From Colwellia sp. 39_35_sub15_T18 (GTDB lineage Bacteria > Pseudomonadota > Gammaproteobacteria > Enterobacterales > Alteromonadaceae), in the NCBI GenBank assembly GCA_002162675.1, contig MAAE01000025.1, positions 1 through 64,000 on the forward strand: a stretch of DNA of 64,000 bases. Reading direction: 5' to 3'. Positions 41,238-57,846 of this stretch are shown here, one piece after another. Every line of letters begins with the position of its first letter. Position 1 is the stretch's first letter. A program made the translations under genes and the position numbers. Below the pieces are notes generated by a model. The model was not told where the DNA came from and did no database searches. It worked only from the letters and a program-made list of their open reading frames with translations.

Positions 41238-41252
41238 TTTGTCTTGATGAAC

Positions 41253-42248
41253 CTAGGTTGTTTTGCGACTAAAGCTGGAAAAGTTAATGATGAGTAAATA
41301 GCAAAAGCTTAACAATAAAGCCAAGGCTAATGGCCAGTAAAATAAGGCGGTTAAAGGTCGCATTTGTTGTTGATCTTGCTCTACGGGTTCTAGCTCGTCG
41401 AGTAACTGATAAATTTGCTCCATGCCTTGGCTATCTTTAGCACGAAAATATTTACCACCTGTTTGCTGTGCAAGCTTGGTTAAGGTTTGCTCGTCTAATT
41501 CACTGGAAGGGTTAATGCGGCGAGAGCCAAACAAGGATTGTTGTAACATAACATCTGCGCCAATACCGATAGCATATATGGTGATATTTTTAGCAATAGC
41601 TAATTCAAGCGCTTGCTCGGGCGATATTCTCCCGGCCGTATTTTGACCGTCGGTGAGTAATAGCAGTACTTTATTTGATTTTTGTTTAGCATCAAAGCGT
41701 TTTACCGCTAAAGCTATGGCATCGCCGATGGCGGTTTTTCTACCCACTAAACCTAGTACACTTTCATCGAGCATTTGTTTAACAGTTTTTCTATCAAATG
41801 TCATAGGGGTTTGCATATAAGCATCGTCAGCAAAAAGTATTAAGCCAAGCCTATCGCCGACGCGACGCTCAATAAAATCTCCTAAAACGGCTTTGAGCAT
41901 ATCAAGGCGGTTTACTGTGCTGCCACGTAAACTCATATCTTCAATTTGCATGCTGCCAGATAAGTCGACAGCAATCATCATTTCACGGCCTTCGGTGGGA
42001 ATATCTATCGCATCTCCTAGCCATTGGGGTTGGCTTAAGGCAATTACGCTTAATAACCAACACAAAGAGAGCATAATGAGGGGCGATTTTTTGTTGTCTT
42101 GAACGGCTGTGCTCACCGTCGAGCCAGATAAAACCTCTGGCACAATAAGTGCGGCACTGACACGGTTTTGACTTTTTTTAGGTAACCAGTACACCAATAA
42201 TGGTAGCGGTAAAAGTAGTAGCAACCAAGGCCAAGCAAAACTTATCAT
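41253..42248 (-). CDS. batA: BatA-like VWA domain protein
   Basis: A 331-residue inner membrane protein with helices at the N-terminus (about residues 5-20 and 58-75) and C-terminus (about 305-322) around a VWA domain. The MIDAS motif is complete: DLSGS (about residue 93), Thr in FDRKT, and TDGQNTAGR. Overlaps the upstream DUF4381 gene by 4 bases. Works with BatB and MoxR in the family model. Confidence 0.88.
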   Translation of the reverse strand: MISFAWPWLLLLLPLPLLVYWLPKKSQNRVSAALIVPEVLSGSTVSTAVQDNKKSPLIMLSLCWLLSVIALSQPQWLGDAIDIPTEGREMMIAVDLSGSMQIEDMSLRGSTVNRLDMLKAVLGDFIERRVGDRLGLILFADDAYMQTPMTFDRKTVKQMLDESVLGLVGRKTAIGDAIALAVKRFDAKQKSNKVLLLLTDGQNTAGRISPEQALELAIAKNITIYAIGIGADVMLQQSLFGSRRINPSSELDEQTLTKLAQQTGGKYFRAKDSQGMEQIYQLLDELEPVEQDQQQMRPLTALFYWPLALALLLSFCYLLIINFSSFSRKTT

Positions 42249-42868
42249 CTGTTGGCTCCTTGTTGCTCTTTCGCTGTTGAGACTATAACTTCTTTCGGCT
42301 TAGATGGTTTAGGCGGTAAAGCGTGCGTAAGCCATAACATAGCGGCTTGATGAAGTTCTTGGTTTGTTTTCGCGCTAAGCTCAGTTTGGCTGGACTTATT
42401 TGTTTGGGCTTGATATTGCTCACTAAAAGCTTGTGTTGATAATTGCTTAAATTCTTTTTGGTGTTTTTCAGTTAATTTTTCGATTAAAAATTGCTGAAAC
42501 TGTTCGCTAAATAATTTAGCCAGCTGCACACGTGAAAAGTAATGTATTGCGGCCCATTTAAGTAATGCTATAACGTCAGAATTACTCATGCTAGGGGAAT
42601 TTTTTAATTGCTTTATCGCTTGTTGTTGATGGCGTTTCAATTTAGCTTTTTGACGACTTTTAATGAATAAAAAAACAATCACTATCAGAGTCATAACCGC
42701 TAATAGCCACCAACCATAAGCAATGGGGTAGTTGCTTACTTGTGCAGGTATGTGAATATCATTCAATTCAATTGTATTAGTCATAGGTGCACTAGTCATA
42801 GGCGCGTTAGCCACAGACGCATTAGCAGGAATAGGCATGGTAACGGGAGCTGGATTTATTTGCTGCAA
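42245..42868 (-). CDS. DUF4381 family membrane protein
   Basis: A 207-residue protein. A Pro/Ala/Met/Asn-rich N-terminal stretch contains repeated NAPMTSAPMT-like words, then IHIPAQVSNYPIAYGWWLLA into one membrane helix (about residues 52-69). A basic, Gln-rich cytosolic region follows, with KWAAIHYFSRVQLAKLFSEQF typical of DUF4381. Overlaps the DUF58 gene start side by 13 bases and batA by 4, so translation is probably coupled. Confidence 0.82.
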   Translation of the reverse strand: MQQINPAPVTMPIPANASVANAPMTSAPMTNTIELNDIHIPAQVSNYPIAYGWWLLAVMTLIVIVFLFIKSRQKAKLKRHQQQAIKQLKNSPSMSNSDVIALLKWAAIHYFSRVQLAKLFSEQFQQFLIEKLTEKHQKEFKQLSTQAFSEQYQAQTNKSSQTELSAKTNQELHQAAMLWLTHALPPKPSKPKEVIVSTAKEQQGANR

Positions 42869-43923
42869 AATTGCACTCCACTTTTTAACTGTTGTTCTAA
42901 CGTTTGCCCAGCGCTTAAATGAATAACACGAGCACCGGCTTTAATAAGTGCTTGTTGACATTGCTCTTTGTTAATACTTGCTTGCTCTTTATAAGTAGCG
43001 GCAGTCGCTTTATCACCTAAAGTGAATTGTTGTCGGTTATTACCATCAGTAAGGGTAACATTAAGTTTGCTGGCACTTGCTGGTAACTCTTGCTCTAAGG
43101 GATCTTTGATTAAACACACCACTAATTCACAATGTTGGCTTATTTGCGTTAAATGGCGTAAGGCATCATTTTTATGCTTAAGTGCCGCATCATCAGTGGC
43201 CATTGCCCGAAGAGATTGACCATCAGTAATTAAATATACTAAGGAGCCTGGTTTGGCTATGTGTCTTATGCGTGCACAGTTATTGCTGAAATAGCTATTG
43301 CTGCTGTTATCAGATAGCGTGTTTTGGCTTTGTTGATATTGCTGCTTATGCTGACTATGGTGCAACGTAGATAAGGCATGCAAGTAATGCAGCACGCCTT
43401 CTTTGCGGCTTCTTGGTTTTAGCTCGAAGTGCTCGTGTTGATTAAAAACGATGCCTCCTAAGCGATCACCACGATTTTTTGCATGCCAAGCCACTAATGA
43501 GGCTAAGTGAGCGGCTTGAACGGATTTAAATAATAATTGACTGCCAAAATGCATGCTAGCACTTAAATCTGTGGCAATAAGTACCGGCCGCTCTAATTCT
43601 TCGCGGAATAATTTTGTGTGAGTTTTACCTGTTCTGGCCGTTACGCGCCAGTCAATGGCACGAATATCATCGCCGGTTTGATAATGGCGAACTTCATCAA
43701 ACTCCATGCCACGACCTTTACTACGAGAAAGGTAGTTGCCTGACATTTTGCCATGAATATTTTTTCGCGCTGACAAATCGATCAGTGCGGTTTTATTTTG
43801 ATAATGAAGTAATTCAGGCATGGCAAGTTCAACACCATTACTTTGAAAGCTTGCCAGCTGAGTTTGACAGCGGCTATTATTAGCCTCTGAATCTTTGCTT
43901 TTTGTTTTTTGTTTAAACCACAT
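42856..43923 (-). CDS. DUF58 domain protein of the MoxR/Bat operon
   Basis: A 355-residue soluble protein. The DUF58 core reads GNYLSRSKGRGMEFDEVRHY, GDDIRAIDWRVTARTGKTHTK and FREELERPVLIATDLSASM, the last being a VWA-like MIDAS (DLSAS). It is the usual partner encoded after moxR, 22 bases downstream here. A Ser/Asn/Gln-rich loop lies near residues 190-215. Confidence 0.88.
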   Translation of the reverse strand: MWFKQKTKSKDSEANNSRCQTQLASFQSNGVELAMPELLHYQNKTALIDLSARKNIHGKMSGNYLSRSKGRGMEFDEVRHYQTGDDIRAIDWRVTARTGKTHTKLFREELERPVLIATDLSASMHFGSQLLFKSVQAAHLASLVAWHAKNRGDRLGGIVFNQHEHFELKPRSRKEGVLHYLHALSTLHHSQHKQQYQQSQNTLSDNSSNSYFSNNCARIRHIAKPGSLVYLITDGQSLRAMATDDAALKHKNDALRHLTQISQHCELVVCLIKDPLEQELPASASKLNVTLTDGNNRQQFTLGDKATAATYKEQASINKEQCQQALIKAGARVIHLSAGQTLEQQLKSGVQFCSK

Positions 43924-43945
43924 AGCTAATAATTAATCTTATGCG

Positions 43946-44911
43946 CTAAGCGACTGCAACTAGACTTAATAAGTGATCAAGTAATTGATTTGCCGTAATA
44001 CCTTCAGCTTCAGCTTGATAACTTAATAAAATTCTATGTCTTAGTACATTGTGAAATACCGCTTGAATATCTTCGGGGCTGACAAAATCACGATTATGCA
44101 ACCAAGCGCGTGAACGAGCGCATCTATCTAACGCAATGGTCGCTCTTGGGCTAGCGCCATAAGCTAACCATGATTTTAGCTGGTCGTCATATTTTTCTGG
44201 TTGACGGGTAGCCATGATCAAATCAACCATGTAGGTTTCAATGGCCGGTGCCATGTGAATATTAAGCACTGCTTCACGAGCGCTAAATATTTCTGCTTGG
44301 CTTAATACTCTTAATTGTGGTTTTTCTTGATTCGCATTGGCAAGTGCCTCACCGCGATTCAGTTTTAAGATTTCAAGTTCACTGGCGGCATCTGGGTAGT
44401 CAATTTCTAAATGCATTAAAAATCGATCTAATTGCGCTTCAGGTAACGGATAAGTTCCTTCTTGCTCGATAGGATTTTGTGTCGCCATCACGAGAAATAG
44501 TTCAGGCAGTTGATAGGTTTTTCTGCCTACGGTTACTTGTCCTTCAGCCATAGCTTCTAACAAAGCCGATTGTACTTTGGCGGGCGCACGGTTAATTTCA
44601 TCAGCAAGAACGAGATTTTGAAATAAAGGCCCTGCTTGGAAAACAAAACTACCGTCTTCTGGGCGATAAATATCTGTGCCCGTTAAATCAGCAGGTAATA
44701 AGTCAGGGGTAAATTGAATACGATGAAAGTCTGCTTCTAGGCCCTCAGCCAAGGCATTAATTGCGCGAGTTTTTGCTAACCCCGGCGGCCCTTCAACAAT
44801 TAAATGACCATTTGCTAATAAAGCAATAAGTAAATTTTCAACAAAGGCAGGTTGGCCAATAATTTGTTTTGATAAATGTTGTTTTAATGTTGAGAAATGT
44901 TCAATAGCCAT
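43946..44911 (-). CDS. MoxR family AAA+ ATPase
   Basis: A 321-residue chaperone-like ATPase, first gene of the Bat operon. Walker A is GPPGLAKTRA (about residues 41-50), Walker B is LVLADEINRAPAKVQSALLEAMAEGQ, sensor 1 is ATQNPIEQEGTYPLPEAQLDRF, and sensor 2 is ASPRATIALDRCARSRAW. I start at ATG 44911 (MAIEHF), which gives the family length; in-frame upstream TTG at 45007 would add 32 poor residues. Divergent from fadI. Confidence 0.93.
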   Translation of the reverse strand: MAIEHFSTLKQHLSKQIIGQPAFVENLLIALLANGHLIVEGPPGLAKTRAINALAEGLEADFHRIQFTPDLLPADLTGTDIYRPEDGSFVFQAGPLFQNLVLADEINRAPAKVQSALLEAMAEGQVTVGRKTYQLPELFLVMATQNPIEQEGTYPLPEAQLDRFLMHLEIDYPDAASELEILKLNRGEALANANQEKPQLRVLSQAEIFSAREAVLNIHMAPAIETYMVDLIMATRQPEKYDDQLKSWLAYGASPRATIALDRCARSRAWLHNRDFVSPEDIQAVFHNVLRHRILLSYQAEAEGITANQLLDHLLSLVAVA

Positions 44912-45145
44912 ATTTATTTTGTCTTTCAATTTATTATTTATAGTAGAGTGAGCGCTAGCTGAAATGCACTTTAGCATTTTATATAAGGGTTTTGCTAAAG
45001 AAAACAAGCCTTATTCAACTTATATTTAACTTAGTTGTAACAAAATTTTACTTATTTGCTGTAGTTAATCAGCTATGCTTGCGGTAGTAAAAAAATTCAG
45101 GGATTGATATTTTTTGATAGTTAGTTAGAATCAAGGGTAATATTC

Positions 45146-45162
45146 AAGAGGTCAGACCTCTT
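45146..45162 (+). promoter_or_regulatory. FadR-type operator upstream of fadI
   Basis: AAGAGGTCAGACCTCTT is a perfect 17-base palindrome with the GGTCNGACC core of FadR boxes. It is 55 bases before the fadI start. The neighbour genes (fadI, fadJ) are classic FadR targets, which makes repression relieved by acyl-CoA the likely control. Confidence 0.8.
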
Positions 45163-45217
45163 TGTGTCTTTATCTATTCTTGCAATAGGTAAGCGCTATA
45201 ACTGGAGAATAAAGTAT

Positions 45218-46522
45218 ATGACGATAAAAATGACCACATCAAAAGGCGAACGCATTGCGGTAGTCGCAGGGCTTAGAACTCCTTTTGCCAAACAAGCGAC
45301 CGCTTTTCATGGCGTGCCTGCCGTTGATTTAGGTAAATTAGTCGTAAATGAGCTATTGCAAAAGCACGACATTGACCCTGCCATTATTGACCAGTGTGTT
45401 TTTGGTCAAGTAGTGCAAATGCCAGAAGCGCCAAATATTGCTCGTGAAATTGTACTCGGTACCGGCATGAATGTTCATACCGATGCTTACAGTGTCTCGC
45501 GTGCTTGTGCGACTAGTTTTCAATCAACCGTGAATGTTGCCGAGTCTATTATGGCTGGCTTTGTTGATGTCGGTATTGCCGGCGGTGCCGATTCTTCTTC
45601 TGTTGCGCCTATTGGTGTCTCGAAAAAATTCGCAAGAACTTTATTAGATTTAAGTAAAACTAAAACCTTAGGGCAAAAAATCGCCTTAATTCGCAAGTTA
45701 GGTTTGAAAGATATTATGCCTGTTGCACCTGCTGTGGCTGAATATTCAACGGGAATTTCTATGGGGCAAACGGCTGAACAAATGGCCAAAACCTATAATA
45801 TTGCTCGTGAAGATCAAGATGCGTTAGCACATCGCTCTCATACTTTAGCGACGCAAAGTTGGGCAGAAGGTAAGTTAGCGGGCGAAGTAATGAGCGCTCA
45901 CAGTGAACCTTATAAAGTTTTTATCGATAAAGATAATTGTATTCGTGAAAACTCTGTCTTAGAAAGTTACGCAAAATTACGCCCTTGTTTTGATAGAAAA
46001 CACGGTACGGTAACGGCGGCGACGAGTACGCCGTTAACTGATGGCGGCGCCGCAATATTATTAATGCGTGAAGGAAGAGCAAAAGAGTTGGGTTATAAGC
46101 CGTTAGGTTATATTCGCAGCTATGGTTTTGCAGCGATTGATGTCTGGCAAGACATGTTAATGGGTCCAAGTCACGCCACGCCAATCGCATTAAAACGTGC
46201 CGGTATGGAATTAGCTGATTTAGATCTAATAGAAATGCATGAAGCTTTTGCAGCACAAGCACTGGCTAATATGAAAATGTTTGCCAGTAACAAGTTTGCT
46301 AAAGAGCATTTAGGTCGAGATAAAGCCATTGGTGAAATTGATATGACTAAATTTAATGTGATGGGCGGCTCGTTGGCTTATGGTCATCCATTTGCGGCAA
46401 CAGGTGCGCGTTTAATTACCCAAACACTTAATGAGCTAAATCGTCGTGGTGGTGGTGTTGGCTTAACTACGGCTTGTGCCGCAGGTGGTTTAGGTGCAGC
46501 TATGGTTGTGGAGACAGACTAA
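45218..46522 (+). CDS. fadI: Acetyl-CoA acyltransferase FadI (3-ketoacyl-CoA thiolase)
   Basis: Last step of beta-oxidation: thiolytic cleavage of 3-ketoacyl-CoA. The nucleophile Cys is in [10 protein letters not shown] (about residue 99), with HEAFAAQ and C-terminal [16 protein letters not shown] and [12 protein letters not shown] containing the other catalytic His and Cys. I start at ATG 45218 with TGGAGA nine bases upstream, giving 434 residues; E. coli FadI has 436. The stop overlaps the fadJ start (TAATG). Confidence 0.95.
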
Positions 46523-48771
46523 TGAATGATATTAAAACAGATACTAAAGCAGATACGAGTAGCGAAATGAATAGTGATGAGTTACAAGTAGAGAGTCAAG
46601 TTGCAAATAGTGAGCTGAGTAGCGAGTCGAATAAAAGCAGTGCTTTCACCTTAGTTCGTCAAGAAAACGGCATTGTGCATTTGGTTATGGATGTTGTTGA
46701 TGACACCATGAACACGCTTAAAGCAGAATTTGCTGAGCAAGTGGCGGATGTGTTGGCTGAAATTAAGGCTGATGCTGCTATTACTGGTGTTGTGTTATGT
46801 AGTGGTAAAGAAGACTCTTTTGTTGCCGGCGCTGATATAAATATGATCAATGACTGCAAAACCAAAGAAGAAGTGGTTGCGTTGACGCGTCAAGGTCAAA
46901 TGATTTTCTCACAGCTTGAACAATTGAATGTACCTGTCGTGGCTGCGATTAATGGTGCTTGTTTAGGCGGTGGCTTAGAGCTCGCCATGGCATGTCATGC
47001 ACGTGTTTGTAGTGACAACCCTAAAACAGCATTAGGTTTACCTGAAGTGCAATTAGGTTTATTACCCGGCGGCGGCGGTACACAACGTCTACCTAAGCTT
47101 GTTGGCGTGCAAAAAGCACTAGATATGATGTTAACAGGTAAGCAGCTTAGAGCTAAGCAAGCGTTGAAACTAGGTTTAGTCGATGATGTTGTGCCTAATA
47201 GTATTTTAATTGCCACAGCCGAAAAGATGGCGCTGGCCGGTAATTTTAAAAAAACCGAAAAGTTTAAATCATCGCTGATTAATAAATTTCTTGAAGGTAC
47301 TTCAGTTGGTCGTGGCATTGTTTATAAACAGGCAACAAAGTCTGTTTTATCTAAAACTAAAGGTAATTACCCTGCGCCGGTTAAAATTATTAATTGCATA
47401 AAAACAGGCGTGGAGCAATCTTCAGCAAAAGGCTTTCAAGTAGAAGCTGAACATTTCGCTGAATTAGTGATGAGTTCAGAATCAGCTCAATTACGTAACC
47501 TATTTTTTGCAACGACAGAGATGAAGAAAGAGCAGGGCGTTGCTGATGTCATGCCTGAAAAAATAGCTAAAGCAGGTGTGCTTGGTGGTGGTTTAATGGG
47601 AGGCGGTATTGCTTTTGTTACGGCAACCAAGGCTAATATTCCTGCCCGTATAAAAGATATTGGTCATCAAGGCATTAGCCACGCACTTAAATACAGTTTT
47701 GACATACTTAATAAAAAAGTAAAGCGTCGCTTCATGCGTAACAGCGAAATGCAAAAGCAAATGGCGATGATCACGGGTTGTATTGATTACTCTGGTTTTG
47801 AAGATATCGATATTGTTGTTGAAGCAGTATTTGAAAATTTAGAGCTAAAACAAAATATGGTGCTAGAAATTGAACAGCATGCTAAAGAGTCAACCATTTT
47901 TGCTAGTAACACCTCTAGTTTACCTATTAGCGATATAGCGGCCAAAGCAGCACGCCCTGAAAATGTTATTGGTTTACATTATTTCTCTCCAGTAGATAAA
48001 ATGCCATTGGCGGAAATAATTCCTCATGCCAGCACGTCAGATAAAACCATTTCAACGACGGTTGCTTTTGCTAAAAAGCAAGGTAAAACGCCTATTGTTG
48101 TTAAAGACAAAGCAGGTTTTTACGTTAATCGTATTTTAACTCCTTACATGAATGAAGCAGCCATTTTATTACTGGCAGGAGAGCCTATTGATAAAGTTGA
48201 TAAAGCCTTAGTGAACTTTGGTTTCCCTGTTGGGCCTATACAATTGCTTGATGAAGTAGGTATTGATGTTGGTGCTAAAATAAGCCCCATACTACAAGCT
48301 AATTTAGGCGAACGTTTTGCTGCTCCTTCGGCATTTTCTAAGTTACTTGATGATGGTCGCTTAGGTAAAAAAGTAGAGAAAGGTTTTTACCTGTATGGTA
48401 AGAATGTCAAGAAAGGCTTGATGAAAAAAGGAAAGCAAGTTGATGAAAGCATATATAGTTTATTGAACTTGACGCCAGCGGGCAGTTTATCGGCGGATGA
48501 AATAGCTAAACGTTGTACATACATGATGCTTAATGAAGCGGCACGTTGTGTTGATGAAGGCATAGTGCGTAATGCTCGTGATGGTGATATTGGTGCTATT
48601 TTTGGTATTGGCTTTCCACCATTCTTAGGCGGTCCGTTACGTTATATTGATAAAATAGGCGCGCAATCGTTAGTTGCACAATTATCACGATGGGCAGAGC
48701 AGCACGGTGAACGTTATACACCTTGTGATGCTTTAGTAGCTATGGCTGAAAGTGGCGCTAAATACTATTAG
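46522..48771 (+). CDS. fadJ: Multifunctional fatty acid oxidation enzyme FadJ
   Basis: A 749-residue two-domain enzyme. The N-terminal enoyl-CoA hydratase (AGADINMI, NGACLGGGLELAMACHAR, GLPEVQLGLLPGGGGTQRLP) is followed by an L-3-hydroxyacyl-CoA dehydrogenase (NAD site GVLGGGLMGGGIAF, then ASNTSSLPISDIA and GLHYFSPVDKMPLAEII with the catalytic His). About 35 extra acidic, Ser-rich residues precede the first domain compared with E. coli FadJ. One-base overlap with fadI. Forms the FadI-FadJ complex. Confidence 0.95.
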   Translation: MNDIKTDTKADTSSEMNSDELQVESQVANSELSSESNKSSAFTLVRQENGIVHLVMDVVDDTMNTLKAEFAEQVADVLAEIKADAAITGVVLCSGKEDSFVAGADINMINDCKTKEEVVALTRQGQMIFSQLEQLNVPVVAAINGACLGGGLELAMACHARVCSDNPKTALGLPEVQLGLLPGGGGTQRLPKLVGVQKALDMMLTGKQLRAKQALKLGLVDDVVPNSILIATAEKMALAGNFKKTEKFKSSLINKFLEGTSVGRGIVYKQATKSVLSKTKGNYPAPVKIINCIKTGVEQSSAKGFQVEAEHFAELVMSSESAQLRNLFFATTEMKKEQGVADVMPEKIAKAGVLGGGLMGGGIAFVTATKANIPARIKDIGHQGISHALKYSFDILNKKVKRRFMRNSEMQKQMAMITGCIDYSGFEDIDIVVEAVFENLELKQNMVLEIEQHAKESTIFASNTSSLPISDIAAKAARPENVIGLHYFSPVDKMPLAEIIPHASTSDKTISTTVAFAKKQGKTPIVVKDKAGFYVNRILTPYMNEAAILLLAGEPIDKVDKALVNFGFPVGPIQLLDEVGIDVGAKISPILQANLGERFAAPSAFSKLLDDGRLGKKVEKGFYLYGKNVKKGLMKKGKQVDESIYSLLNLTPAGSLSADEIAKRCTYMMLNEAARCVDEGIVRNARDGDIGAIFGIGFPPFLGGPLRYIDKIGAQSLVAQLSRWAEQHGERYTPCDALVAMAESGAKYY

Positions 48772-48825
48772 TTAAGCCTAAGTATAACGTTATGCTAGCC
48801 ACTCAGTGGTATCGTGCATCATTAC

Positions 48826-48860
48826 AAAAAACGTCAACTTTCAGGAGTTGGCGTTTTTTT
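48826..48860 (+). terminator. Intrinsic terminator after fadJ
   Basis: CGTCAACT/AGTTGGCG (one G-U pair) with a 6-base loop, preceded by A6 and followed by T7, about 55 bases past the fadJ stop. Strong. Confidence 0.9.
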
Positions 48861-49161
48861 ATGCTTGCAGCGGAGCAACCAATTAGTTTTATTATATTAC
48901 GATTATTGCTCATGATAATGAGAGCGCCATTTATTTGACTGCAAAAATAATCCGAGTGCTGGCAAAGATATTCCTTACTAGAGGCGAGTTATTGCCAGTA
49001 AAACGTAGTGAAATATTAATAGCCATTGCAATAAGTGATTGAGTATTCACCCAGCTTTTATTATATTAGCGGCGATTTTTTTTACTGCCATTGTTTATGG
49101 AATGTTTTTTAGCCTATTTCTTGGGAATTCTTTATGAAGGTATTGCTATGAGGGTATTGTT
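48861..49161. other. Gene-free gap, no recognisable feature
   Basis: About 300 AT-rich bases between the fadJ terminator and the small membrane protein. I find no convincing reading frame, tRNA, stem with a U run or copy of the dispersed repeats. A short near-duplicate (GAAGGTATTGCTATG then GAGGGTATTG) sits at its right end, next to the ribosome site of the following gene. Confidence 0.5.
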
Positions 49162-49371
49162 TTGTTGCTGTTAATTTTACTTATAGGCTGTTGTAGCCTA
49201 GTTTGTGGGCTTTTCTTTAACATTCAAGCATTGCTGACTGGCTTAGGACGAAAACGTTGGACGATAGCTGGCTTGGTTTTTGGTCCACTGGTGTGGCCAA
49301 TGTTTATGATGAAAAAACGTATGCAGCTTAACCATCTGTTTGGATTAAACCAGTTGATTTTTAAGGCCTAG
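49162..49371 (+). CDS. Small membrane protein, hypothetical
   Basis: A 69-residue protein starting at TTG, with GAGGG about eight bases upstream. Two hydrophobic segments (about residues 1-20 and 34-50) are separated by the basic turn GLGRKRW; a tail follows beginning MMKKRM. Small proteins of this pattern occur in marine gammaproteobacteria, but I cannot name a family. The reading frame lacks stop codons over a length that is only moderately unlikely by chance, so reality is not certain. Confidence 0.5.
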   Translation: MLLLILLIGCCSLVCGLFFNIQALLTGLGRKRWTIAGLVFGPLVWPMFMMKKRMQLNHLFGLNQLIFKA

Positions 49372-49529
49372 AGCTTTTTGCTGTACAAAAAGGGTTATAA
49401 AAGGAGCTTCAGTGAGCTTAAATAGAACTGAGAAGGTGAATAAATAAAAAGTTTTCTAAGAGGGGTTATATACTTCAGATAATAAAGTCACCAACATCCA
49501 TGTTAGTGCGTCTTAAATAGACTTAACTT

Positions 49530-49646
49530 TTACGACCACCAAGAGTTGGCAGACGTTTCTTTAAATTCAATACGAGCAGCAATAGGGTTTGCTTTCGTTT
49601 TTTTAGCGGTATTAGCCGTAAATAATGCTTTGAATAGATTAATCAT
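49530..49646 (-). CDS. 38-residue microprotein with strong ribosome site
   Basis: The reading frame starts MINLFKALF and ends ETSANSWWS. The start ATG has AAGGAG seven bases upstream, among the best ribosome sites in this window. The product is basic in the middle (AKKTKANP) and aromatic at the C-terminus (WW). There is no signal peptide or long hydrophobic stretch. It lies 52 bases after the repeat-peptide gene on the same strand, so the two may share a transcript. I do not recognise it. It is short enough to be missed by routine gene calling. Confidence 0.6.
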   Translation of the reverse strand: MINLFKALFTANTAKKTKANPIAARIEFKETSANSWWS

Positions 49647-49698
49647 TATATGACTCCTTATTAATTAAGTAATGAGTAGTTATATTATTAATAAGCGT

Positions 49699-49935
49699 TT
49701 ATATGCGCATAGAGCCACGCGCTTTACCCGCTTTTTCAATGGATAAGTTTTCTTTAGAGTTTATACGCATAGAGCCACGCGCTTTACCCGCTTTTTCAAT
49801 AGTTAGATCTTGTTCAGCGTTTATGCGCATAGAGCCACGCGCCTTACCAATTTCTTGAATATCTAAACTGTGAGTATCAGCAATAGGAGCAGGTGAAACT
49901 GACATTGCCATTGATAGAATAATTGAACTTAACAT
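49699..49935 (-). CDS. Small exported protein with three GKARGSMRI repeats
   Basis: A 78-residue protein. Residues 1-19 look like a short signal peptide (hydrophobic, ending SPAPIA) but lack N-terminal basic residues. The rest is three units of 20 residues: DIQEIGKARGSMRINAEQDL, then TIEKAGKARGSMRINSKENL and SIEKAGKARGSMRI, where the last unit stops right after GSMRI. The nine residues GKARGSMRI are invariant. Ribosome site AAGGAA lies six to seven bases before ATG. I know no family for it. It could be a secreted multi-copy peptide precursor, a small beta-rich surface protein, or a partner of the neighbouring sensor; none is shown. Confidence 0.75.
   Translation of the reverse strand: MLSSIILSMAMSVSPAPIADTHSLDIQEIGKARGSMRINAEQDLTIEKAGKARGSMRINSKENLSIEKAGKARGSMRI
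49702..49860. repeat. 60-bp tandem repeat inside the GKARGSMRI gene
   Basis: Three copies in exact 60-base register at 49702-49740, 49761-49800 and 49821-49860. The first two share 35 identical bases (49706-49740 and 49766-49800). The third, encoding the N-terminal unit, differs at several positions. The near identity suggests recent expansion or gene conversion. Confidence 0.9.
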
Positions 49936-50155
49936 GCACTTTTCCTTAAAATATAATTGTTTATATGTATTGTTGATTTGTTTTACTAATTAGACTAATG
50001 CTTAAATTATGCCAAGTTAAAAGTGTTTATGTGTAGAAGGGAGTAAAGCTTTGGTTTTAAAAGCCTGCATACGAGCGAGCAATTATTTTTCGATAAAAGG
50101 GTAATAGTTGTCGTCGGAGTATTTAGCTGGAGTTATATTTTTGACGCTAAATTAT

Positions 50156-50180
50156 TAAATAAAAGCAGAGCTTTATTTTT
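50156..50180 (-). terminator. Possible terminator overlapping the sensor gene stop
   Basis: On the minus strand AATAAAGC pairs with GCTTTTATT around a 3-base loop, and an AT-rich tail follows. The stem is weak and includes the stop codon region, so low confidence. Confidence 0.3.
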
Positions 50181-53100
50181 GATTGAAGCTAGTGGATTTA
50201 TGAGTTATCTGGTGAGATAACAAGTATTTTTGAAATTGTTCAGTAGCCAGCGGTTTACTGTATAAATAACCTTGTAACTGTTCACAACGTAAGCCAGATA
50301 AAAAACTAAGCTGTTGATTGGTTTCAACGCCTTCTGCGACAACATCCATGCCTAAGTTATGGGCAATGGTGACAATAGTGGCTACCATATTTCTCCCTTG
50401 CTCGGACTCTTCAATGTCATCAACAAAGGCTTTGTCTATTTTTAGGGTGTTAAGAGGGAATTTTTTTAAATAGGCCAATGAAGAGTAACCGGTGCCAAAG
50501 TCATCAAGGGACAAGTGAATACCCATAGCCCTAATCTGCAACATGGTATCGATAGCCTCTTGAGGTGAGTCCATTACCGTACCTTCGGTTATTTCAAGCT
50601 CTAGATGCTTAGCAGGAAGTTGACTTTCTTTCAATATATCAGCAATTTGACCCACCAAGTTACTTTGGGTAAATTGCACTGCGGATAAGTTAACCGCGAC
50701 TCGGCCATCAAATAAGCCAGCATCGACCCACTTCTTGGTAGCAAAACAGGCTTTTCTTAAGACTATTTCACCTATGTCGATAATTTGTCCCGTTTCTTCT
50801 GACACTGGGATAAAGACAATAGGGCTAATGACGCCTTTATTGGGGGTTTCAAATCTCACTAAAGCTTCCATACCCGCCACTTTACCAGTAGATATTTCAA
50901 TTTTAGGTTGATAGAACACAGAAAAAGAGTCTTCCTTTAAACCATGGCGGATCAAGTTTTCAATTTGCAAGCGTTTGACGGCTTGCTTGTTCATAGAGTC
51001 ACTGAAAAATTGATATTTATTGCCACCACTGCCTTTGGCGTGATACATGGCGGTATCAGCATTTTTTAATAACTCATGGCCTGAGTTGCCATCTTCAGGA
51101 AAGAGCACGATACCTATGCTGCTGTATAGTACTATTTCTTGATTCTTTAGTTTAAAGGGCTGGGCAGTAGCACTTAAAATATTTTTGGCTAATGAAGTGA
51201 TAGTGTGAATATCATTAGTTCCTTCAATGATGATACTAAATTCATCGCCTCCTAGACGATAGACGCTGTCTTGTTTTCTACTCAGTGCCAACATGCGACT
51301 AGCTACTTGGCATAAAACATTGTCGCCTACTTGATGTCCCATAGAGTCGTTTATTTTTTTAAAATTATCTAAATCAAAAACTAATAGAGCATGGTTGATT
51401 TTATTCTTAACCAGTCTCGCCTGATTTGCTTGAAAAAATGAGCGGTTAGGTAAACCCGTTAATGTATCTAAACTAGCGAGTTTTCTTAGCTCAGCTTCTG
51501 TTTCTTTCCGTTTAGTTATATCAGAAAATACACCAACAAAATGAGTGATGTTGCCACCTTCATCACGAATGATATCAAGATTTAAATCGGTTAAATATTT
51601 ACTGCCATTAGCACGTAAACTTTCAATTTCACCATGCCAGCCGCCTTTGGTGAGCAAATGTTTTTTGATGCTTTGACTAAAGCTATTGGGGTATTGATTA
51701 AAGCTCATTGAACGGCCAACCATTTGATTTTTACTTTTACCCGTTATGCGCTGAAATGCTTTATTAACGTCAACGGTAATAAATTGACGATCATAAATAA
51801 CCACAGCGTCAGAAATGTTTTGGATACAACGGGCAAACAATTTCAAACGCTCTTCAGCTTTTTTGATGTGACTGATATCTTTTAAGGTACCCGTCATACG
51901 CGTCGGTTTATTATTATCATCGCGTTCAACAATTTTGCCGCGGTCTAAAATCCAAATCCAACGATTATTTTTATCTTTAACACGATAAGTACTTTCAAAA
52001 TGCTCGTTATTATCATTGAGGTGATCCGTTAAAGCTTGTTTAACTCTTGCTAAATCTTGATGATGAATATTGGTTTCGGCATTGGCATTACGGGTACTGT
52101 CTTGAGGGAATGCTAAGTTGCTCCAAGTATTGGTGTGGTACACCTTGTCGGTTTTAATATTCCAATCCCACATTTCATCGCCACTGCCCCAAAGGGAAAG
52201 CTTTAAACGCTCTTCGCTTTCTTTTATTTGTGAGTTATATAACTGTTTATTGCGATACTGTTGTATAACATAAACAAAAAACAGCATTGAGACTAGGGTA
52301 TAGAAAAGCATAGCGCTGGTGGATAACCACCAGGGAGGCAATATGTGAACATTAAGCTGGCTAGTTTTTGAGTTTTCAGGATGATTGACATCATAAGCTT
52401 CTACCTCAAAGACATAATCACCAGCGCTGAGGTTAGTATAGGTGGCGCGATTATTATTACTACCCGTATCTGTGGCGGCATCAATCCAATGCTTTTCTAA
52501 GCCGATTAGTCGATATTTATAGCGAATTTGGGCAGGTAATTTAGGGTTTGGAGAAACAAATTCAAAGCTGACAGGCGATTGTTTATAGGCCAGTTCAAGT
52601 TGTACTAATGAGTTTAATTGTTTAGCTAACGTATATTCTTTGTTAGTCATTTCTTCTTTTTTGGTAAAACTAGTAATATCAATTTTTTTATTGGCGACGT
52701 ATAAATTGGTAAACAATGGTTTTGCGATGTTTTGTGTTATTTGTAATATTTCATTCGGACTAAATTTAAATAAACCATTTGAACTGCCAAAATACATATC
52801 GTTTGACTCTGATTTTAATGCGGCAAATTCAATAAATTCAGGTTTACTAATGGCAAAGTCATTATCAAAGTTTGTTACACGTTTTTCAAATGGATTTATT
52901 TTTGTTATACCTATATTTGTTGCCAACCAGGCATTTTCTTGTTCATCAATTAATATAGAGGCAACAAAGTCATTTTTTAAGCCATTACTTTCATTAAATA
53001 CTTCTATTTTTTTAGTTATACGATTGATTAATATAACTCCTTGAGAATCAGAGCCAAACCAAAGCCAGTTTTTACTTACCTGTAGTTTTTTAATATAAGT

Positions 53101-54870
53101 GCCATATAGAACTTCAGGTAGCTTGGTTTGTAGTTTTGTGAATGATTCTTTTTGAATATCGAATTTATAAATATGATTACTTTTTGTGAGAACCCATAAC
53201 GTATTATCATTTTGTGACTGTAAGCTGGTGATCGAAACGCTATTTTTAGTTTTGTATGAAGTAAATTTTTTTTGTTTAGTGTTATAACTAGTTAACTCAC
53301 CAGACTCATTAATAAACCAAAAGTCATTTTCAATTATTGTTAATAGTTTGTCTGCTGAGTAATTCGATTTTGACGACCAGCTTAAATGTTCAAATAACTT
53401 ATCGTCATAAGGTAAGTATTCATAAAGGTTGTTGTTTGCAGAACGTAACCAGATAGAATTGGAGTTATTCGCTATTATCCACCTCGGTTTAACATCAAGT
53501 TTTGAACTTAATCTTTTATTTGCTTTCTTATTTGTTAATGAAAATAGTCCCTGCTTTTCAGTAGATAGCCAAACCACTCCATCAGAGGTTTCGGCAAAAG
53601 ATTCTACCCGGTAGTTCTGAGCTTCATTACCAGCCAAACCATGATAAAACAAACTAGTAAGTGGTGAGTATTTATTGATACCACCACCGTAAGTAGCTAA
53701 CCACATATTACCATTGTTATCTTGGTACATGTCCATCAGCCAGTTTTCACTGAGAGAGTTTTTATTTGTATTGTTTTGATAAGCATGAATGCTGTCATCA
53801 AGCAGGTTGATGGTATTTAAACCATTGTGGGTTGCTAACCATACATGAGTATCATCATACTGAGCAATAGCGCGAATATTATTTGATAATAGTGATTGAG
53901 ATGTACTGCTGTTTTCTTGTTTTGTCGTTAAATGAGATAGTAATTGATAGTCGTCATCAATAATAAATAAACCATTATTGGTTGCTAACCAATAATGGTT
54001 GTCGATAGTTTTTATATCAAATAGTGATTGGGCATTCACCGTTAAATCAAATTTATTATTTTCTTGTAATGAGCCAATGTAAGTTAAATTTTTACTGATA
54101 AGGTGTATGCCATTGTCATAACTGCCTAGCCAGTAGTTTTGTTGCTTGTCTTGAAAAATGGTTTTTATTTCTTGAAATTTATTATTATGGCCACGTATAT
54201 CAATACGTTTAAATAGTGCACTTTTATTGCTACTTTCAAGGGATAAAGTATGCAATCCGAGCGTTGTTGATACCCAAAGTAAGCCTTTTTGTTGTACTTT
54301 TTTACCTGATTTGTCTTTTATTATTTTCCCCGTATCTTGATAGATATCCCAAATAACATTATCTCGAAGCGAGTTACTATCATTAGTAATCTGGCTAAAA
54401 GTATCAAAGTTATCGAGTTCAAGATTATAGCGACTTAAACCTTTTTTAGTACCAATCCAGAGGGTATTATCACTATCAATGAATATTTTTCGAATAACAT
54501 TGTCGGCGATAGAATGGTTGTCGTTGGCATTGTGGCGGTAGGTAATAAAATTATTACCGTCATAGCGGTTCAAGCCATCTTCGGTGGCAAACCAGATAAA
54601 GCCTTGGTGATCTTGAGTGATGCCGAAAACATTAGAATTTGAAAGGCCATCCATTGCGGAGAGTTGGCTGAATTTTAATTGTTCATTTTCTGAATAAATA
54701 ATTTGCGAAGTATGGTTTTCAGCCTGAGCTATGCCAATAAATAATGACAATAAGGCGGTACAGCCGAGAATAAGATATTTTAGCTTTAATAAAGCATAGT
54801 GATTAAAAAATAACACTATGGATGATGGTACTGATAAAAAAGAAGAAAGCTTGAAAAAATTTAAAAGCAC
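50173..54870 (-). CDS. Beta-propeller sensor with PAS, GGDEF and EAL domains
   Basis: A 1565-residue hybrid cyclic-di-GMP enzyme. A signal or anchor segment (about residues 25-50) leads to many two-component-regulator propeller repeats (for example FGITQDHQGFIWFATEDGLNRYDG), likely forming two seven-bladed periplasmic propellers to about 745. A Y_Y_Y domain, a membrane helix (about 860-880) and two PAS domains (about 890-1140) follow. GGDEF comes next, with RLGGDEF intact and an RxxD inhibitory site five residues before it. Last is EAL with EALVRF, LEITEG, DDFGTGYSSL and VAEGVET, so both domains look catalytic. Probably senses an extracytoplasmic ligand. Confidence 0.92.
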   Translation of the reverse strand: MLLNFFKLSSFLSVPSSIVLFFNHYALLKLKYLILGCTALLSLFIGIAQAENHTSQIIYSENEQLKFSQLSAMDGLSNSNVFGITQDHQGFIWFATEDGLNRYDGNNFITYRHNANDNHSIADNVIRKIFIDSDNTLWIGTKKGLSRYNLELDNFDTFSQITNDSNSLRDNVIWDIYQDTGKIIKDKSGKKVQQKGLLWVSTTLGLHTLSLESSNKSALFKRIDIRGHNNKFQEIKTIFQDKQQNYWLGSYDNGIHLISKNLTYIGSLQENNKFDLTVNAQSLFDIKTIDNHYWLATNNGLFIIDDDYQLLSHLTTKQENSSTSQSLLSNNIRAIAQYDDTHVWLATHNGLNTINLLDDSIHAYQNNTNKNSLSENWLMDMYQDNNGNMWLATYGGGINKYSPLTSLFYHGLAGNEAQNYRVESFAETSDGVVWLSTEKQGLFSLTNKKANKRLSSKLDVKPRWIIANNSNSIWLRSANNNLYEYLPYDDKLFEHLSWSSKSNYSADKLLTIIENDFWFINESGELTSYNTKQKKFTSYKTKNSVSITSLQSQNDNTLWVLTKSNHIYKFDIQKESFTKLQTKLPEVLYGTYIKKLQVSKNWLWFGSDSQGVILINRITKKIEVFNESNGLKNDFVASILIDEQENAWLATNIGITKINPFEKRVTNFDNDFAISKPEFIEFAALKSESNDMYFGSSNGLFKFSPNEILQITQNIAKPLFTNLYVANKKIDITSFTKKEEMTNKEYTLAKQLNSLVQLELAYKQSPVSFEFVSPNPKLPAQIRYKYRLIGLEKHWIDAATDTGSNNNRATYTNLSAGDYVFEVEAYDVNHPENSKTSQLNVHILPPWWLSTSAMLFYTLVSMLFFVYVIQQYRNKQLYNSQIKESEERLKLSLWGSGDEMWDWNIKTDKVYHTNTWSNLAFPQDSTRNANAETNIHHQDLARVKQALTDHLNDNNEHFESTYRVKDKNNRWIWILDRGKIVERDDNNKPTRMTGTLKDISHIKKAEERLKLFARCIQNISDAVVIYDRQFITVDVNKAFQRITGKSKNQMVGRSMSFNQYPNSFSQSIKKHLLTKGGWHGEIESLRANGSKYLTDLNLDIIRDEGGNITHFVGVFSDITKRKETEAELRKLASLDTLTGLPNRSFFQANQARLVKNKINHALLVFDLDNFKKINDSMGHQVGDNVLCQVASRMLALSRKQDSVYRLGGDEFSIIIEGTNDIHTITSLAKNILSATAQPFKLKNQEIVLYSSIGIVLFPEDGNSGHELLKNADTAMYHAKGSGGNKYQFFSDSMNKQAVKRLQIENLIRHGLKEDSFSVFYQPKIEISTGKVAGMEALVRFETPNKGVISPIVFIPVSEETGQIIDIGEIVLRKACFATKKWVDAGLFDGRVAVNLSAVQFTQSNLVGQIADILKESQLPAKHLELEITEGTVMDSPQEAIDTMLQIRAMGIHLSLDDFGTGYSSLAYLKKFPLNTLKIDKAFVDDIEESEQGRNMVATIVTIAHNLGMDVVAEGVETNQQLSFLSGLRCEQLQGYLYSKPLATEQFQKYLLSHQITHKSTSFNQK

Positions 54871-55035
54871 AGTTCAACCTGAATAAAGAAAAAAGTGATA
54901 ATTATTATTAAAAAATGCCAGACCATTTAAAGTCATGCATAGCCTTAAGTCAACTACTGTTCGTCGTTAGTTAATTTGCTTAGTTAGTTCTTCATTAGTT
55001 AAAATAACTTAGGCAATAGTTTATTATCGGCAGTA

Positions 55036-57846
55036 TTAATATTTTCTTTTACTTTTTTTAATAAAATCATCGCAGTTGCTTATTATTTCTGCATTTGAGG
55101 TTGTCGCTTTTAGTCTAAATTCCACATTCTTCTCGGTAGGGGTGGAAGTCAAAATAAGCCTGTCAGGATTAGTTGTTGCCATTAATTGCTCTTTAATAAA
55201 GGTTTTCACTTGCTCAAAGGTGAGTGACAAAATTGCCGAGAGTAATTGCTCTTTATGGGAAAATAGATGGTCTTTATTGCATATAGCGGCCCAAAAACGT
55301 TGGCTTTTAATTCTCAAGTTACTGTCTTTTTCTTCAAGCTGCCCAGCTAACCCTTGAATGAGATGAGACCAGTTTTCATCGGTTAGGTCATCCAGCATAA
55401 TTAAACTGTTGTTGATAAAGTCATCTATAGCGGTTGTTAAATCGTTAGCATTGGTATGTGGTGACTGAATATAAAAAGCGATACCGGGATAGCGATTGAT
55501 AGGAACATAGCCAACCCCAACGATGTATCCGTATTGTTTTTCTGTGCGCATTTCTTGAAAGAAGAATGGTGATAAAAGGTGGCTGGTTACCATAGTTAAA
55601 GCGACTAAATGATTATCTCGTTTTGGTAGCGGGCTGTAAACGACTGTGGCGTGATCATGCTCAGGAATTATCATTGGTAGTAAGAGGGTGTTTTGGTTTT
55701 TAAAATCAATAACCGGGCACTGTACGGCAAACTTTTTATGGTAGCTGCTGCTAAAAACTTGTTTAATATTTTTGGCAATAGTTTGGGCATGTTCAAGCAA
55801 CCAGTTACCATGAATAAGCGCTTCAAGGGTTATTTGCTTAAATAGTTGCTGGCAAAAAACTTGATATTGTGAAAAATCAATTTGGCTAAGTGCCTTAGCC
55901 AGTGTCTCGGCATTTGGGTTGTTTGGCTGGGTAAAAGAGCTAAGCGTAGAAAATAATTGTGAAATTGACTTACTCTTGTCGGTATTTTGCCAGTGGCTAA
56001 TTAATTGCTGTTTAAATAAGTCAAAGTCTTGCTCGGTAGCATCATGCGTTTGTAAGCGGTATAACAATTTTTTTAATAATGCCGGCTGGTTTTCGCTAAT
56101 GCCTGAAACTTGTAGGGTAATACCACCTTGGTGGGCGTAAAGGTGATAATGAATGCATGCAAGTTCAGCATCATAGTTTTCTTCAACGACGGTATTGGTG
56201 TATAAGTCGACAAATAATCGCGTCATGGCGATGTTTTCTATACTCAAAATAGAGTAGGGAGAGTCAATGCCAAGATAGATATAACCTTTGGGTACTTTAA
56301 AGGTGGTGTCTTGCTTATACCAAATTGCTAGGCCACTAGCTTCTTCAATTTTTATCGGTACTTCTTTTGGTTCAACATTCGCATAAATATGCGGGTTGCC
56401 GATAATGTAAGGGTTTGCATCGGGTAGATATAAGCCATTTTTTGCTGCGCTTTTATTATTGGCAGCAGATAGCTCACGCCAATGAGTTAATTTTTGTTTA
56501 GCAATATTTTTAACATAGTAGGGGACTTGGTACCAAGCGCTAGTTTGCGTGAATTGATTGTTTTGACTGATGTGAGTGATACGCATGTTGTCGGCATTTA
56601 AATAAGCAAGTAAATGACTGATGTTATTATGATCCATCCCCGACATGATGTAATCACCAAATATATAATCATCAACAGGGTAATGTTGCATGTTAATGAC
56701 TAATTGACTGACATTATCTAAAGGCCGTGTTTTTTCGTGATATGTAAAAGACAACTCGGCAATCGCTTGTTTTTCTTTATAATAGTGTTCGGGTAATGGT
56801 GCTGACTTTAATAAGCCTATATACGAAAACACCACCGCTATGATGTCATCTACATGTTGTTCACCATACTCAGTTAGGCTAATACTAATATTAAAGTCTT
56901 TGAAATTTGAGCCATTAATGCCTGATCCTGCGGTTAAGCCCATCGCCCACTGTTCATGTTTTAATTTCGCTAAAATGCTGCCAGCACCCTCATGACCAAG
57001 CAAGTAAGCCAATATTGATTCAGGTTTATCTTGATAATATTTATCAATACTTTCCATGGCAAAACTGATGATTAACTGATGATCATTTTTTACCGGGCAA
57101 ATAGCTATGCTTATACTTTGATGCTCAGCAAGATATAATGGCTCAGATACCTTTGCAAGCGGGGTAGCGGTGGTTTTTATTGCGTTAAACATCTGCTCTG
57201 CTAATTGAGCTAACTCAGTTAAAGGTTGAGGCCCTTCAATGGCCAGTGTCATATAGCTAGCCTGATAATATTGGTCAAAAAAATTGTTGACTTCATTGAC
57301 AATACTATTGTCGTCTCTATCTGCAAGGGTGTCGATATTACCGACTGAAAATTGTGAGAAAGGGTGAGCTTGGTTGATGGTTTCTTTATGGACATCATAT
57401 AAACGGCGAATATCATCTTTTAGCTTTAACTTAAATTCAGCATCAATATTTTTTCTTTCTTTAACAATAAACTCTTCGCTGAGCAAAGGCGCGGTAAAAA
57501 ACTGACTAAAACGATCAAGGGCACTACTAAAATGTTGATGATGAACGTCAAAATAGAAACAAGTATGCTCTGTTGCTGTCCAAGCATTGTTACTACCACC
57601 ATGTTGACTGATAAATTTTTGATATTCACTACCGTCAGGATATTTTTCTGTGCCTAAAAATAGCATGTGTTCAAGAAAATGCGCCAAACCTTGTCTATCT
57701 TTTGGGTCATTAAAATGCCCAACGTTAACCGCTAATGCTGCTGCTGACTTATCAGAATCTTCATTATGAATAAGTAATACTCGTAAACCATTGCTCAAGG
57801 TAAGTGATTGGTATTGTTTTAAATCGTTTGGGCTTTGCTTCAACAC
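55036..57846 (-). CDS. ptrA: Insulinase-like metalloprotease (protease III/pitrilysin)
   Basis: A 936-residue M16 family peptidase. The zinc site HFLEHMLFLGTEKYP (HxxEH) is at about residues 55-70, with the third ligand Glu in the ERKNIDAEFK region. The C-terminal inactive half-domain carries EMRTEKQYGYIVGVGY. E. coli Ptr has 962 residues and a signal peptide; here the protein begins with SPNDLKQYQSLTLSNGLRVLL without an evident signal, so it may be cytosolic or use another route. Confidence 0.88.
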   Translation of the reverse strand: MLKQSPNDLKQYQSLTLSNGLRVLLIHNEDSDKSAAALAVNVGHFNDPKDRQGLAHFLEHMLFLGTEKYPDGSEYQKFISQHGGSNNAWTATEHTCFYFDVHHQHFSSALDRFSQFFTAPLLSEEFIVKERKNIDAEFKLKLKDDIRRLYDVHKETINQAHPFSQFSVGNIDTLADRDDNSIVNEVNNFFDQYYQASYMTLAIEGPQPLTELAQLAEQMFNAIKTTATPLAKVSEPLYLAEHQSISIAICPVKNDHQLIISFAMESIDKYYQDKPESILAYLLGHEGAGSILAKLKHEQWAMGLTAGSGINGSNFKDFNISISLTEYGEQHVDDIIAVVFSYIGLLKSAPLPEHYYKEKQAIAELSFTYHEKTRPLDNVSQLVINMQHYPVDDYIFGDYIMSGMDHNNISHLLAYLNADNMRITHISQNNQFTQTSAWYQVPYYVKNIAKQKLTHWRELSAANNKSAAKNGLYLPDANPYIIGNPHIYANVEPKEVPIKIEEASGLAIWYKQDTTFKVPKGYIYLGIDSPYSILSIENIAMTRLFVDLYTNTVVEENYDAELACIHYHLYAHQGGITLQVSGISENQPALLKKLLYRLQTHDATEQDFDLFKQQLISHWQNTDKSKSISQLFSTLSSFTQPNNPNAETLAKALSQIDFSQYQVFCQQLFKQITLEALIHGNWLLEHAQTIAKNIKQVFSSSYHKKFAVQCPVIDFKNQNTLLLPMIIPEHDHATVVYSPLPKRDNHLVALTMVTSHLLSPFFFQEMRTEKQYGYIVGVGYVPINRYPGIAFYIQSPHTNANDLTTAIDDFINNSLIMLDDLTDENWSHLIQGLAGQLEEKDSNLRIKSQRFWAAICNKDHLFSHKEQLLSAILSLTFEQVKTFIKEQLMATTNPDRLILTSTPTEKNVEFRLKATTSNAEIISNCDDFIKKSKRKY

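Follow-up and report, generated by a model that had tools for sequence, protein, structure and literature searches.

Gene organisation at the locus

The window, by which we mean the whole stretch of 64,000 nucleotides of Colwellia sp. 39_35_sub15_T18 that was analysed (contig MAAE01000025.1, positions 1 to 64,000), contains a short repeat gene, here called gene A, and around it the following features.

46474..48771, (+) strand: fadJ-like flanking gene (enoyl-CoA hydratase / 3-hydroxyacyl-CoA dehydrogenase domains by Pfam), locus marker
49162..49371, (+) strand: gene C, small hydrophobic protein of about 66-70 aa, convergent (ORF reading, genome searches)
49530..49646, (-) strand: gene B, 38 aa, MINLFKALF...NPIAARIEFKETSANSWWS, small ORF beginning 52 nt beyond A, preceded by AAGGAG
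49699..49935, (-) strand: gene A, repeat peptide (precursor), 78 aa, probably exported (ORF reading and homologs)
49879..49935, (-) strand: A leader, residues 1-19, hydrophobic with an A-P-I-A|D-like end (kept in relatives; composition)
49822..49848, (-) strand: core copy 1, GKARGSMRI, residues 30-38
49762..49788, (-) strand: core copy 2, GKARGSMRI, residues 50-58
49702..49728, (-) strand: core copy 3, GKARGSMRI, residues 70-78, abutting the stop
50173..54870, (-) strand: sensor, 1565 aa, Reg_prop propeller and Y_Y_Y followed by PAS-PAS-GGDEF-EAL (Pfam, translation)
55036..57846, (-) strand: M16 peptidase flanking gene (Pfam; ptrA in our scripts), locus marker

Gene A opens with an ATG and translates as MLSSIILSMAMSVSPAPIADTHSLDIQEIGKARGSMRINAEQDLTIEKAGKARGSMRINSKENLSIEKAGKARGSMRI, with the stop codon directly behind core 3. 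Reading of the frame bore out the account in an earlier note made from the sequence alone, namely three exact GKARGSMRI units at a 20-residue period ending on the third GSMRI, together with a run of 35 identical bases common to the last two units. Tandem Repeats Finder ranked the array first of its 46 rows in the window (score 224, period 60, 2.5 copies). The gene is single-copy in the 4.0 Mb genome. Both A and B are preceded by a Shine-Dalgarno-like sequence, which for A is AAGGAAAA, 5' of the ATG, and an I-x-I-x-E-like stretch stands ahead of the first core. Comparison with relatives indicates that gene A is protein-coding and not a chance repeat, since homologs keep the frame, the leader and the core boundaries, and the core copies vary almost only synonymously. 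An RNA element at the locus was also considered and rejected, the two Rfam matches in the window being sub-threshold (20.1 against 55 bits and 16.9 against 100 bits). A promoter scan found 5 where 3.6 were expected.

The N-terminus, which the earlier note had called signal-like, fits that description in part: it is hydrophobic up to about residue 14 and then offers an A-P-x-A|D-like site (judged by eye), but in the set of 88 A proteins assembled below, 77 lack K/R at residues 2-10. Relatives in other genera and families do carry K/R near the N-terminus (MLKAYAMAL..., MIKGIVTSIAL...). From the composition of the leader, A is probably exported. An AlphaFold model of A built from two sequences gave no confident fold (pLDDT 53.6), which alone would be weak evidence against a repeat-protein reading.

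The sensor gene, a neighbour that the earlier note had overlooked, lies upstream of A on the same strand, at a distance of 237 nt. Its Reg_prop, Y_Y_Y, PAS, GGDEF and EAL domains all exceed the Pfam cut-offs, and the GGDEF and EAL letter motifs can be read in the translation. The propeller/Y_Y_Y part is predicted to be periplasmic; a model of this part from three sequences was strand-rich but weak (pLDDT 59).

The forms of gene B that we read encode 30-39 aa, and in most of them WW lies close to the C-terminus. This ending recurs between families (SANSWWS, STWWN, AKGWWN) and is lost in some genera of the window's family (PAAKSL). B may be an accessory gene, possibly encoding an adaptor or a second ligand for the sensor.

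The remaining neighbours appear less specific. Gene C, with the motif GLGxKRWAxAGLxFGPxxWPMF, is part of the block within the window's genus, yet it is distributed far beyond A, B or the sensor (227 of the family's 295 genomes and 89 of the order's 384), and this wider distribution weakens it as a candidate component of a specific A system. The fadJ-like gene is outside the A system and marks the locus. The M16 peptidase was considered as an A-processing protease and set aside: it has no special link to A and stays beside the fadJ-like gene where the block is absent.

A near-constant leader precedes a core that differs between species

At E 0.1, a protein search of the 295 genomes of the window's family detected A in 58, spurious matches among them; hits in open frames of roughly 290-470 aa were disregarded. 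In the loci read, the leader is near-constant (MLSSLILSLAMS.SPAP...). The core differs between most species and is identical or nearly so within each gene; examples from different species are GTRRGTIRI, GTKRSQVRI, GKSHGKVRI, GRKVSTVRI, GSRRGAKRI, SQKRRGSRI and GKRIKI. Cores abut directly or are joined by linkers, often of 10-11 residues. One match in Actinomycetospora (L004, 33%) was discounted as probably due to chance.

We assembled 88 A proteins, including that of the window. Proteins containing X, cut at contig ends or with a leader missing the pattern were left out, as were a wrong pick for G037 and a duplicate in G656 (examples of genomes left out are G003, G008, G030, G040, G046, G076, G092, G112, G249 and G662). 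By an automatic rule, which mis-phased a few cores (G034, G120), at least two copies are present in 70 proteins and at least three in 68, with a maximum of 14. The comparison of unit numbers between genomes, proposed in the earlier note, thus returned 1 to 14 copies in this set, and longer arrays occur elsewhere. The protein ends in RI or RL in 61 of the 88, and the cores of the 70 multi-core genes have a mean net charge of +2.7. Single-core relatives measure 46-68 aa; in one genus (g14) all four loci have a single core at the C-terminus. Modular cores, copies identical at the protein level and a core that varies between species strongly support the layout of a multi-copy peptide precursor, as the earlier note had suggested, and we refer to A as a putative precursor.

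Two irregularities were seen among the arrays. In three loci (L049, L059 and L067) the final unit has decayed (ends NEISI, NEVSI) and all remaining copies are perfect, which looks like a loss of constraint on the last one. In addition, the earlier note had named a repeat frame broken without consequence as an argument against a precursor. In one copy, that of Colwellia maritima (L003/G662), the leader and a perfect five-core array lie in different frames; the gene may be broken there, or the sequence in error.

Selection appears to act on one peptide common to all copies

Core copies within a gene differ at synonymous sites far more than at non-synonymous ones. Over 63 genes, and at columns that were not used for choosing the copies, pS was 0.303 and pN 0.0026, giving a pN/pS of 0.008. 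The linkers of A gave 0.19, and the first three core columns, which are looser in sequence, 0.195. Between species of one genus, pN of the cores reached 0.26; in the 15 species of genus g8, pN/pS was 0.007 within genes versus 0.458 between species. A single case illustrates the pattern: G264 has six GTKRSQVRI copies with many synonymous differences, and in the related G182 the peptide, also present six times, is GTKRTQVRI.

Since the copies have diverged synonymously and remain protein-identical, with cores that differ between species, these substitution patterns indicate that selection targets one peptide common to all copies of a gene. Every copy, it seems, has to fit one and the same partner.

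Gene A, gene B and the sensor gene occur together

In the 295 family genomes, gene B was detected in 76 at E 1e-3. Orthologous sensors, with E values no higher than 1.2e-101 against 2.7e-93 for the following match, were detected in 78. Both cut-offs were set after viewing the match lists. Sensor and B were both present in 74 genomes and both absent from 215, with four genomes having the sensor only and two B only. Most, though not all, of these six mismatches are due to contig ends. Among the sensor-only genomes, G159 has A together with a B that has diverged beyond the reach of the model, and in G048 and G107 the contig ends within the sensor. The fourth, G080, has two partial sensors, both on short contigs. 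One is cut by its contig end; the 1.2 kb following the other (L169) contains neither A nor B, and this sensor is, as far as seen, a real exception to the pairing. Of the B-only genomes, G057 has a sensor fragment adjoining A and G249 begins at a contig end. Second sensor copies or fragments were noted in G101 (C1:97328-99631) and G080 (L169, L170).

The window's genus comprises 31 genomes, from which 20 loci were read. Eight have the block, and ten lack C, B, A and sensor together, with the fadJ-like gene directly adjoining the M16 peptidase; for four of these ten (G078, G207, G247, G271) whole-genome searches also found no B, sensor or C. The other two are atypical: G666 has kept C and lacks B and the sensor, and G672 has the four genes together, elsewhere in its genome. 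B and the sensor are absent from G668 as well. In G281 and G292, A and B are at the old place and the sensor is elsewhere, both parts being retained; in G281 they are 1.1 Mb apart. The gene adjoining the G281 sensor (L172 1964-3172) is presumably transposase-like and the likely cause of this split, and the two splits may be one event. Linkage alone accounts for much of the co-occurrence of sensor, A and B. The peptide gene is tied to the gene of its putative receptor, the exceptions being one genus described below (g3) and the G080 sensor mentioned above.

Presence of A goes with the sensor's periplasmic domain

Gene C served as a place marker for 79 further loci, some from the window's family and some from others; of the two G005 loci one was omitted. 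Fifty of the 79 have a sensor with a propeller and 11 a sensor without, in 17 no sensor was found or the contig was too short, and one is cut (G289, in which the rule for A hit twice, one hit being no more than the sensor's own end). Beside the propeller-bearing sensors, a leader-based rule found an A-like gene in 46 of 50 loci, or 47 if G465 is included, whose A of 432 aa exceeds the length limit of the rule and was found on reading. The three sensors lacking A (G002, G116, G140) all belong to genus g3. In the slot occupied by propeller-less GGDEF-EAL proteins (745-886 aa), A was found in 0 of 11 loci, seven of which have a gap of <70 nt with no room for it. Fisher's test on 46/4 versus 0/11 gave p 3e-9, a value that overstates the case because the loci are related. 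The rule also fires in 6 of 50 opposite-strand gaps and in 7.5% of shuffled gaps; it had been relaxed to allow one acidic residue, adding MLKEYA-type genes, and these false-positive rates were measured afterwards. An internal repeated 5-mer is present in 22 of the 46 A-like genes and a core-like end pair in 20, so that some of the more distant ones are called from leader and position only.

Since A accompanies 47 of 50 propeller-bearing sensors and none of 11 propeller-less ones, gene content indicates that A tracks the periplasmic domain of the sensor and not its c-di-GMP domains. Genus g3 (L241, L287, L291), with a propeller sensor, no A and a gap of 17-62 nt, is the only clade in this comparison that breaks the rule.

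Several other families contribute to this picture. In family f6, all 13 propeller loci have arrays of mostly 13-residue units in proteins of 94 to 432 aa. Their cores differ between most genomes (GLPNIKF, GSPHIKF, GYPYVKF, GAPNVRW), and B ends in AKGWWN or similar. The two loci of family f20 have repeats and B, and the three of family f15 have B and a short leader-bearing ORF with no clear core. More distantly, 24 weaker sensors were found, and in 14 of 14 loci read a small leader-bearing gene lies directly downstream; none of the 14 has B. These genes end in, for example, ...VQIWKPGSVRI or ...GVRAGTVRFYGVRAGTVRF, and most have one core or none that is clear.

Core and sensor co-vary modestly

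The periplasmic part of the sensor evolves fast. Within genus g8 its mean difference was 0.354 versus 0.076 for the cytoplasmic part, that is, 4.7 times faster. With region borders drawn by eye, the fastest stretch was residues 331-700 (0.45, versus 0.225 for residues 60-330 and 0.10 for the fadJ-like protein). Fast periplasmic evolution may, however, be common among sensors generally. With cytoplasmic distance held, core distance correlated positively with periplasmic distance in six of six genera (combined p 0.0009), and in five genera with fadJ also held (p 0.007), though the p values of single genera were mostly >0.05. The converse comparison, of core with cytoplasmic distance with the periplasm held, was null (p 0.68, or 0.80 with fadJ held). 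The co-variation analysis omits G030, G662 and G670, and G1-type genomes with no long fadJ piece are absent from the comparison of regions. Since the A leader, intended as a negative control, also correlated with periplasmic distance (combined p 0.0135), we regard the modest co-variation of core and sensor sequences as suggestive only.

A matches no known family in the libraries searched

Pfam, NCBIfam and PHROGs gave no match to A, B or C of the window, A having none even at E 1 in Pfam or NCBIfam, and PADLOC gave none to these three or to the sensor. This agrees with the earlier note, whose author knew no family for A, and the match to a known structural family that it had named as counting against a precursor did not appear in these libraries. 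Some longer arrays from other genomes do match PHROGs or Pfam, and one array of genus g52 scores above the cut-offs for DUF7239 and for the 19-position Leader_Erm; we take these as matches to repeat composition. By Pfam, none of the nine genes run at 39234-57846 of the window is a RiPP enzyme; six are of the VWA/TPR, VWA, DUF4381, DUF58, MoxR-type AAA and thiolase kinds, and the other three are the fadJ-like gene, the sensor and the M16 peptidase. Clusters of these flanking genes recur in the 40 loci with a located A.

By the tests run, A is not a member of the RiPPs, the curli proteins or the fungal KEPs. The modifying enzyme that would be encoded with a RiPP precursor was not seen among the nine flanking genes of the window. 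A curli or beta-solenoid assignment finds no profile match for the window's protein and no confident fold in the model (pLDDT 53.6 from two sequences, itself weak), and single-core members exist. Fungal KEX2-processed repeat proteins and multi-core pheromone precursors are outlined in PMC7329392, PMC9769878 and PMC6339444. The nearest layout to A is that of the fungal KEPs, which share with A and with alpha-factor-type precursors a leader followed by several near-identical short cores; a leader, judged by eye and composition, and at least three near-identical cores are found in 68 of the 88 A proteins. Unlike the fungal KEPs, however, A is bacterial, its cores can abut and no dibasic pair is common to its core boundaries, although dibasic pairs lie inside some cores. 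The fungal pheromone members have a receptor; the partner of A would be the neighbouring sensor, which has the Reg_prop/Y_Y_Y GGDEF-EAL architecture.

Gram-positive autoinducing peptides of the agr and ComX types are strain- or species-specific and encoded near their own membrane receptor. They have one core per precursor, a dedicated exporter or modifier and a histidine-kinase receptor. A differs in having up to 14 cores, a number exceeded in other families, and in its putative receptor, a c-di-GMP enzyme. YfiR-YfiN and VtrA/VtrC resemble the A locus in that a membrane signalling protein has a small periplasmic partner, but those partners are folded proteins, whereas A is a repeated peptide. 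Co-component cassettes of the VtrA/VtrC kind are called fast-evolving in the title of PMC9214523, and YfiR-YfiN, as a periplasmic cyclase regulator, is treated in PMC3375315. In one open-access library, the titles and abstracts listed yielded no description of a self-encoded peptide beside a Reg_prop/Y_Y_Y GGDEF-EAL sensor, nor of bacterial multi-core precursors or Gram-negative peptide pheromones of this kind. Since no known kind was matched in the libraries and literature searched, the findings suggest that a self-encoded peptide of this sort, hypervariable, present in several copies and linked to a c-di-GMP sensor, is a new kind. If binding were disproved, A would instead be an undescribed family of repeat proteins.

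A putative self-encoded ligand for a c-di-GMP sensor

A adjoins the sensor gene, its presence goes with the propeller domain and its copies are held identical by selection. The reading that we favour, and consider probable, is that A is a self-encoded periplasmic peptide ligand, or a multi-copy precursor of one, for the upstream sensor with its c-di-GMP output. A would be exported to the periplasm, where its core would be recognised by the propeller/Y_Y_Y region; recognition would set the balance of the GGDEF and EAL domains between synthesis and breakdown of c-di-GMP. Export, binding, the direction of the effect and the c-di-GMP output are all what we infer from this arrangement. The identical cores could yield several free peptides per precursor or form a multivalent ligand able to bridge sensors, and tandem copies would raise the dose. 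The core would drift along with its receptor from species to species, and all copies would follow, because each meets the same partner.

For many c-di-GMP sensors the ligand is not known. Here the genome itself would name a likely one, with its own version per species and across many species, and species-matched pairs of peptide and sensor would form a ready set for tests of sensor specificity. A bolder form of the proposal, which we put forward only tentatively, is that of a Gram-negative peptide pheromone: each species, in one large family and at least three others, would secrete its own multi-copy peptide, perceive it through the propeller receptor and adjust attachment by kin identity through c-di-GMP. 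Should the peptide leave the cell, this would amount to a kin-specific Gram-negative peptide language that acts directly on the second messenger controlling attachment. If instead the peptide is retained, the locus would still offer a clean example of selection on the dose or multivalency of a peptide.

The alternative that fares best falls inside the favoured reading, although we doubt it somewhat: A could be a periplasmic subunit that is never released and that bridges or locks sensor dimers, with no diffusible signal. Joined cores with no evident common protease site would be in keeping with this, several copies would suit bridging, and YfiR, the periplasmic regulator of the cyclase YfiN, provides the principle. 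Yet such hypervariability would be an unusual trait in an internal subunit, and single-core forms exist.

Alternatively, A might be a small structural or adhesive repeat protein of a surface or matrix fibre, with a sensor that merely regulates surface functions. Short repeat proteins can assemble, the basic charge of the cores would be compatible with such a role and c-di-GMP often controls matrix genes. We nevertheless consider this unlikely, given the short single-core relatives, a core that changes between related species while hardly varying within a gene, the lack of a family match for the window's A and a presence of A that goes with the sensor propeller. The earlier note had placed an adhesive or beta-rich protein on an equal footing with a precursor, a parity that the single-core relatives and the library searches have weakened.

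It is improbable, too, that A, and with it B, is a RiPP precursor whose enzymes are encoded elsewhere in the genome and whose product is a signal, metallophore or antimicrobial. The leader-core layout, the I-x-I-x-E-like stretch and the WW end of B are reminiscent of such precursors, but the nine flanking genes at 39234-57846 include no RiPP enzyme by Pfam, and clusters of them recur in other loci. A narrow-spectrum antimicrobial peptide, diversified by competition between strains, would explain why the cores are mostly cationic, hypervariable and numerous per precursor; this seems very improbable, as Pfam analysis of the window's flanks revealed no evident immunity gene adjoining A and the presence of A is tied to a propeller-bearing c-di-GMP sensor. 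Finally, a neutral tandem repeat kept uniform by slippage and gene conversion can hardly be the answer: copy number does differ in close relatives (seven in G281, six in G292) and some arrays are nearly DNA-identical (G130), but copies at a pS of about 0.3 still encode the same protein, DNA-level homogenisation would erase both kinds of difference, and the within-gene pN/pS leads us to reject a chance or neutral repeat.

Duplicated genes were also observed at some of the loci. In genus g52 (L128-L133, L135, L136, L137, L139) a tandem pair of B genes lies beside A, the second having a diverged middle and a similar W-W/F-S end, and G465 (L301) likewise has two B genes. One locus (L275) has a tandem pair of near-identical A genes, ending SKSATRAGTVRF, behind a single sensor.
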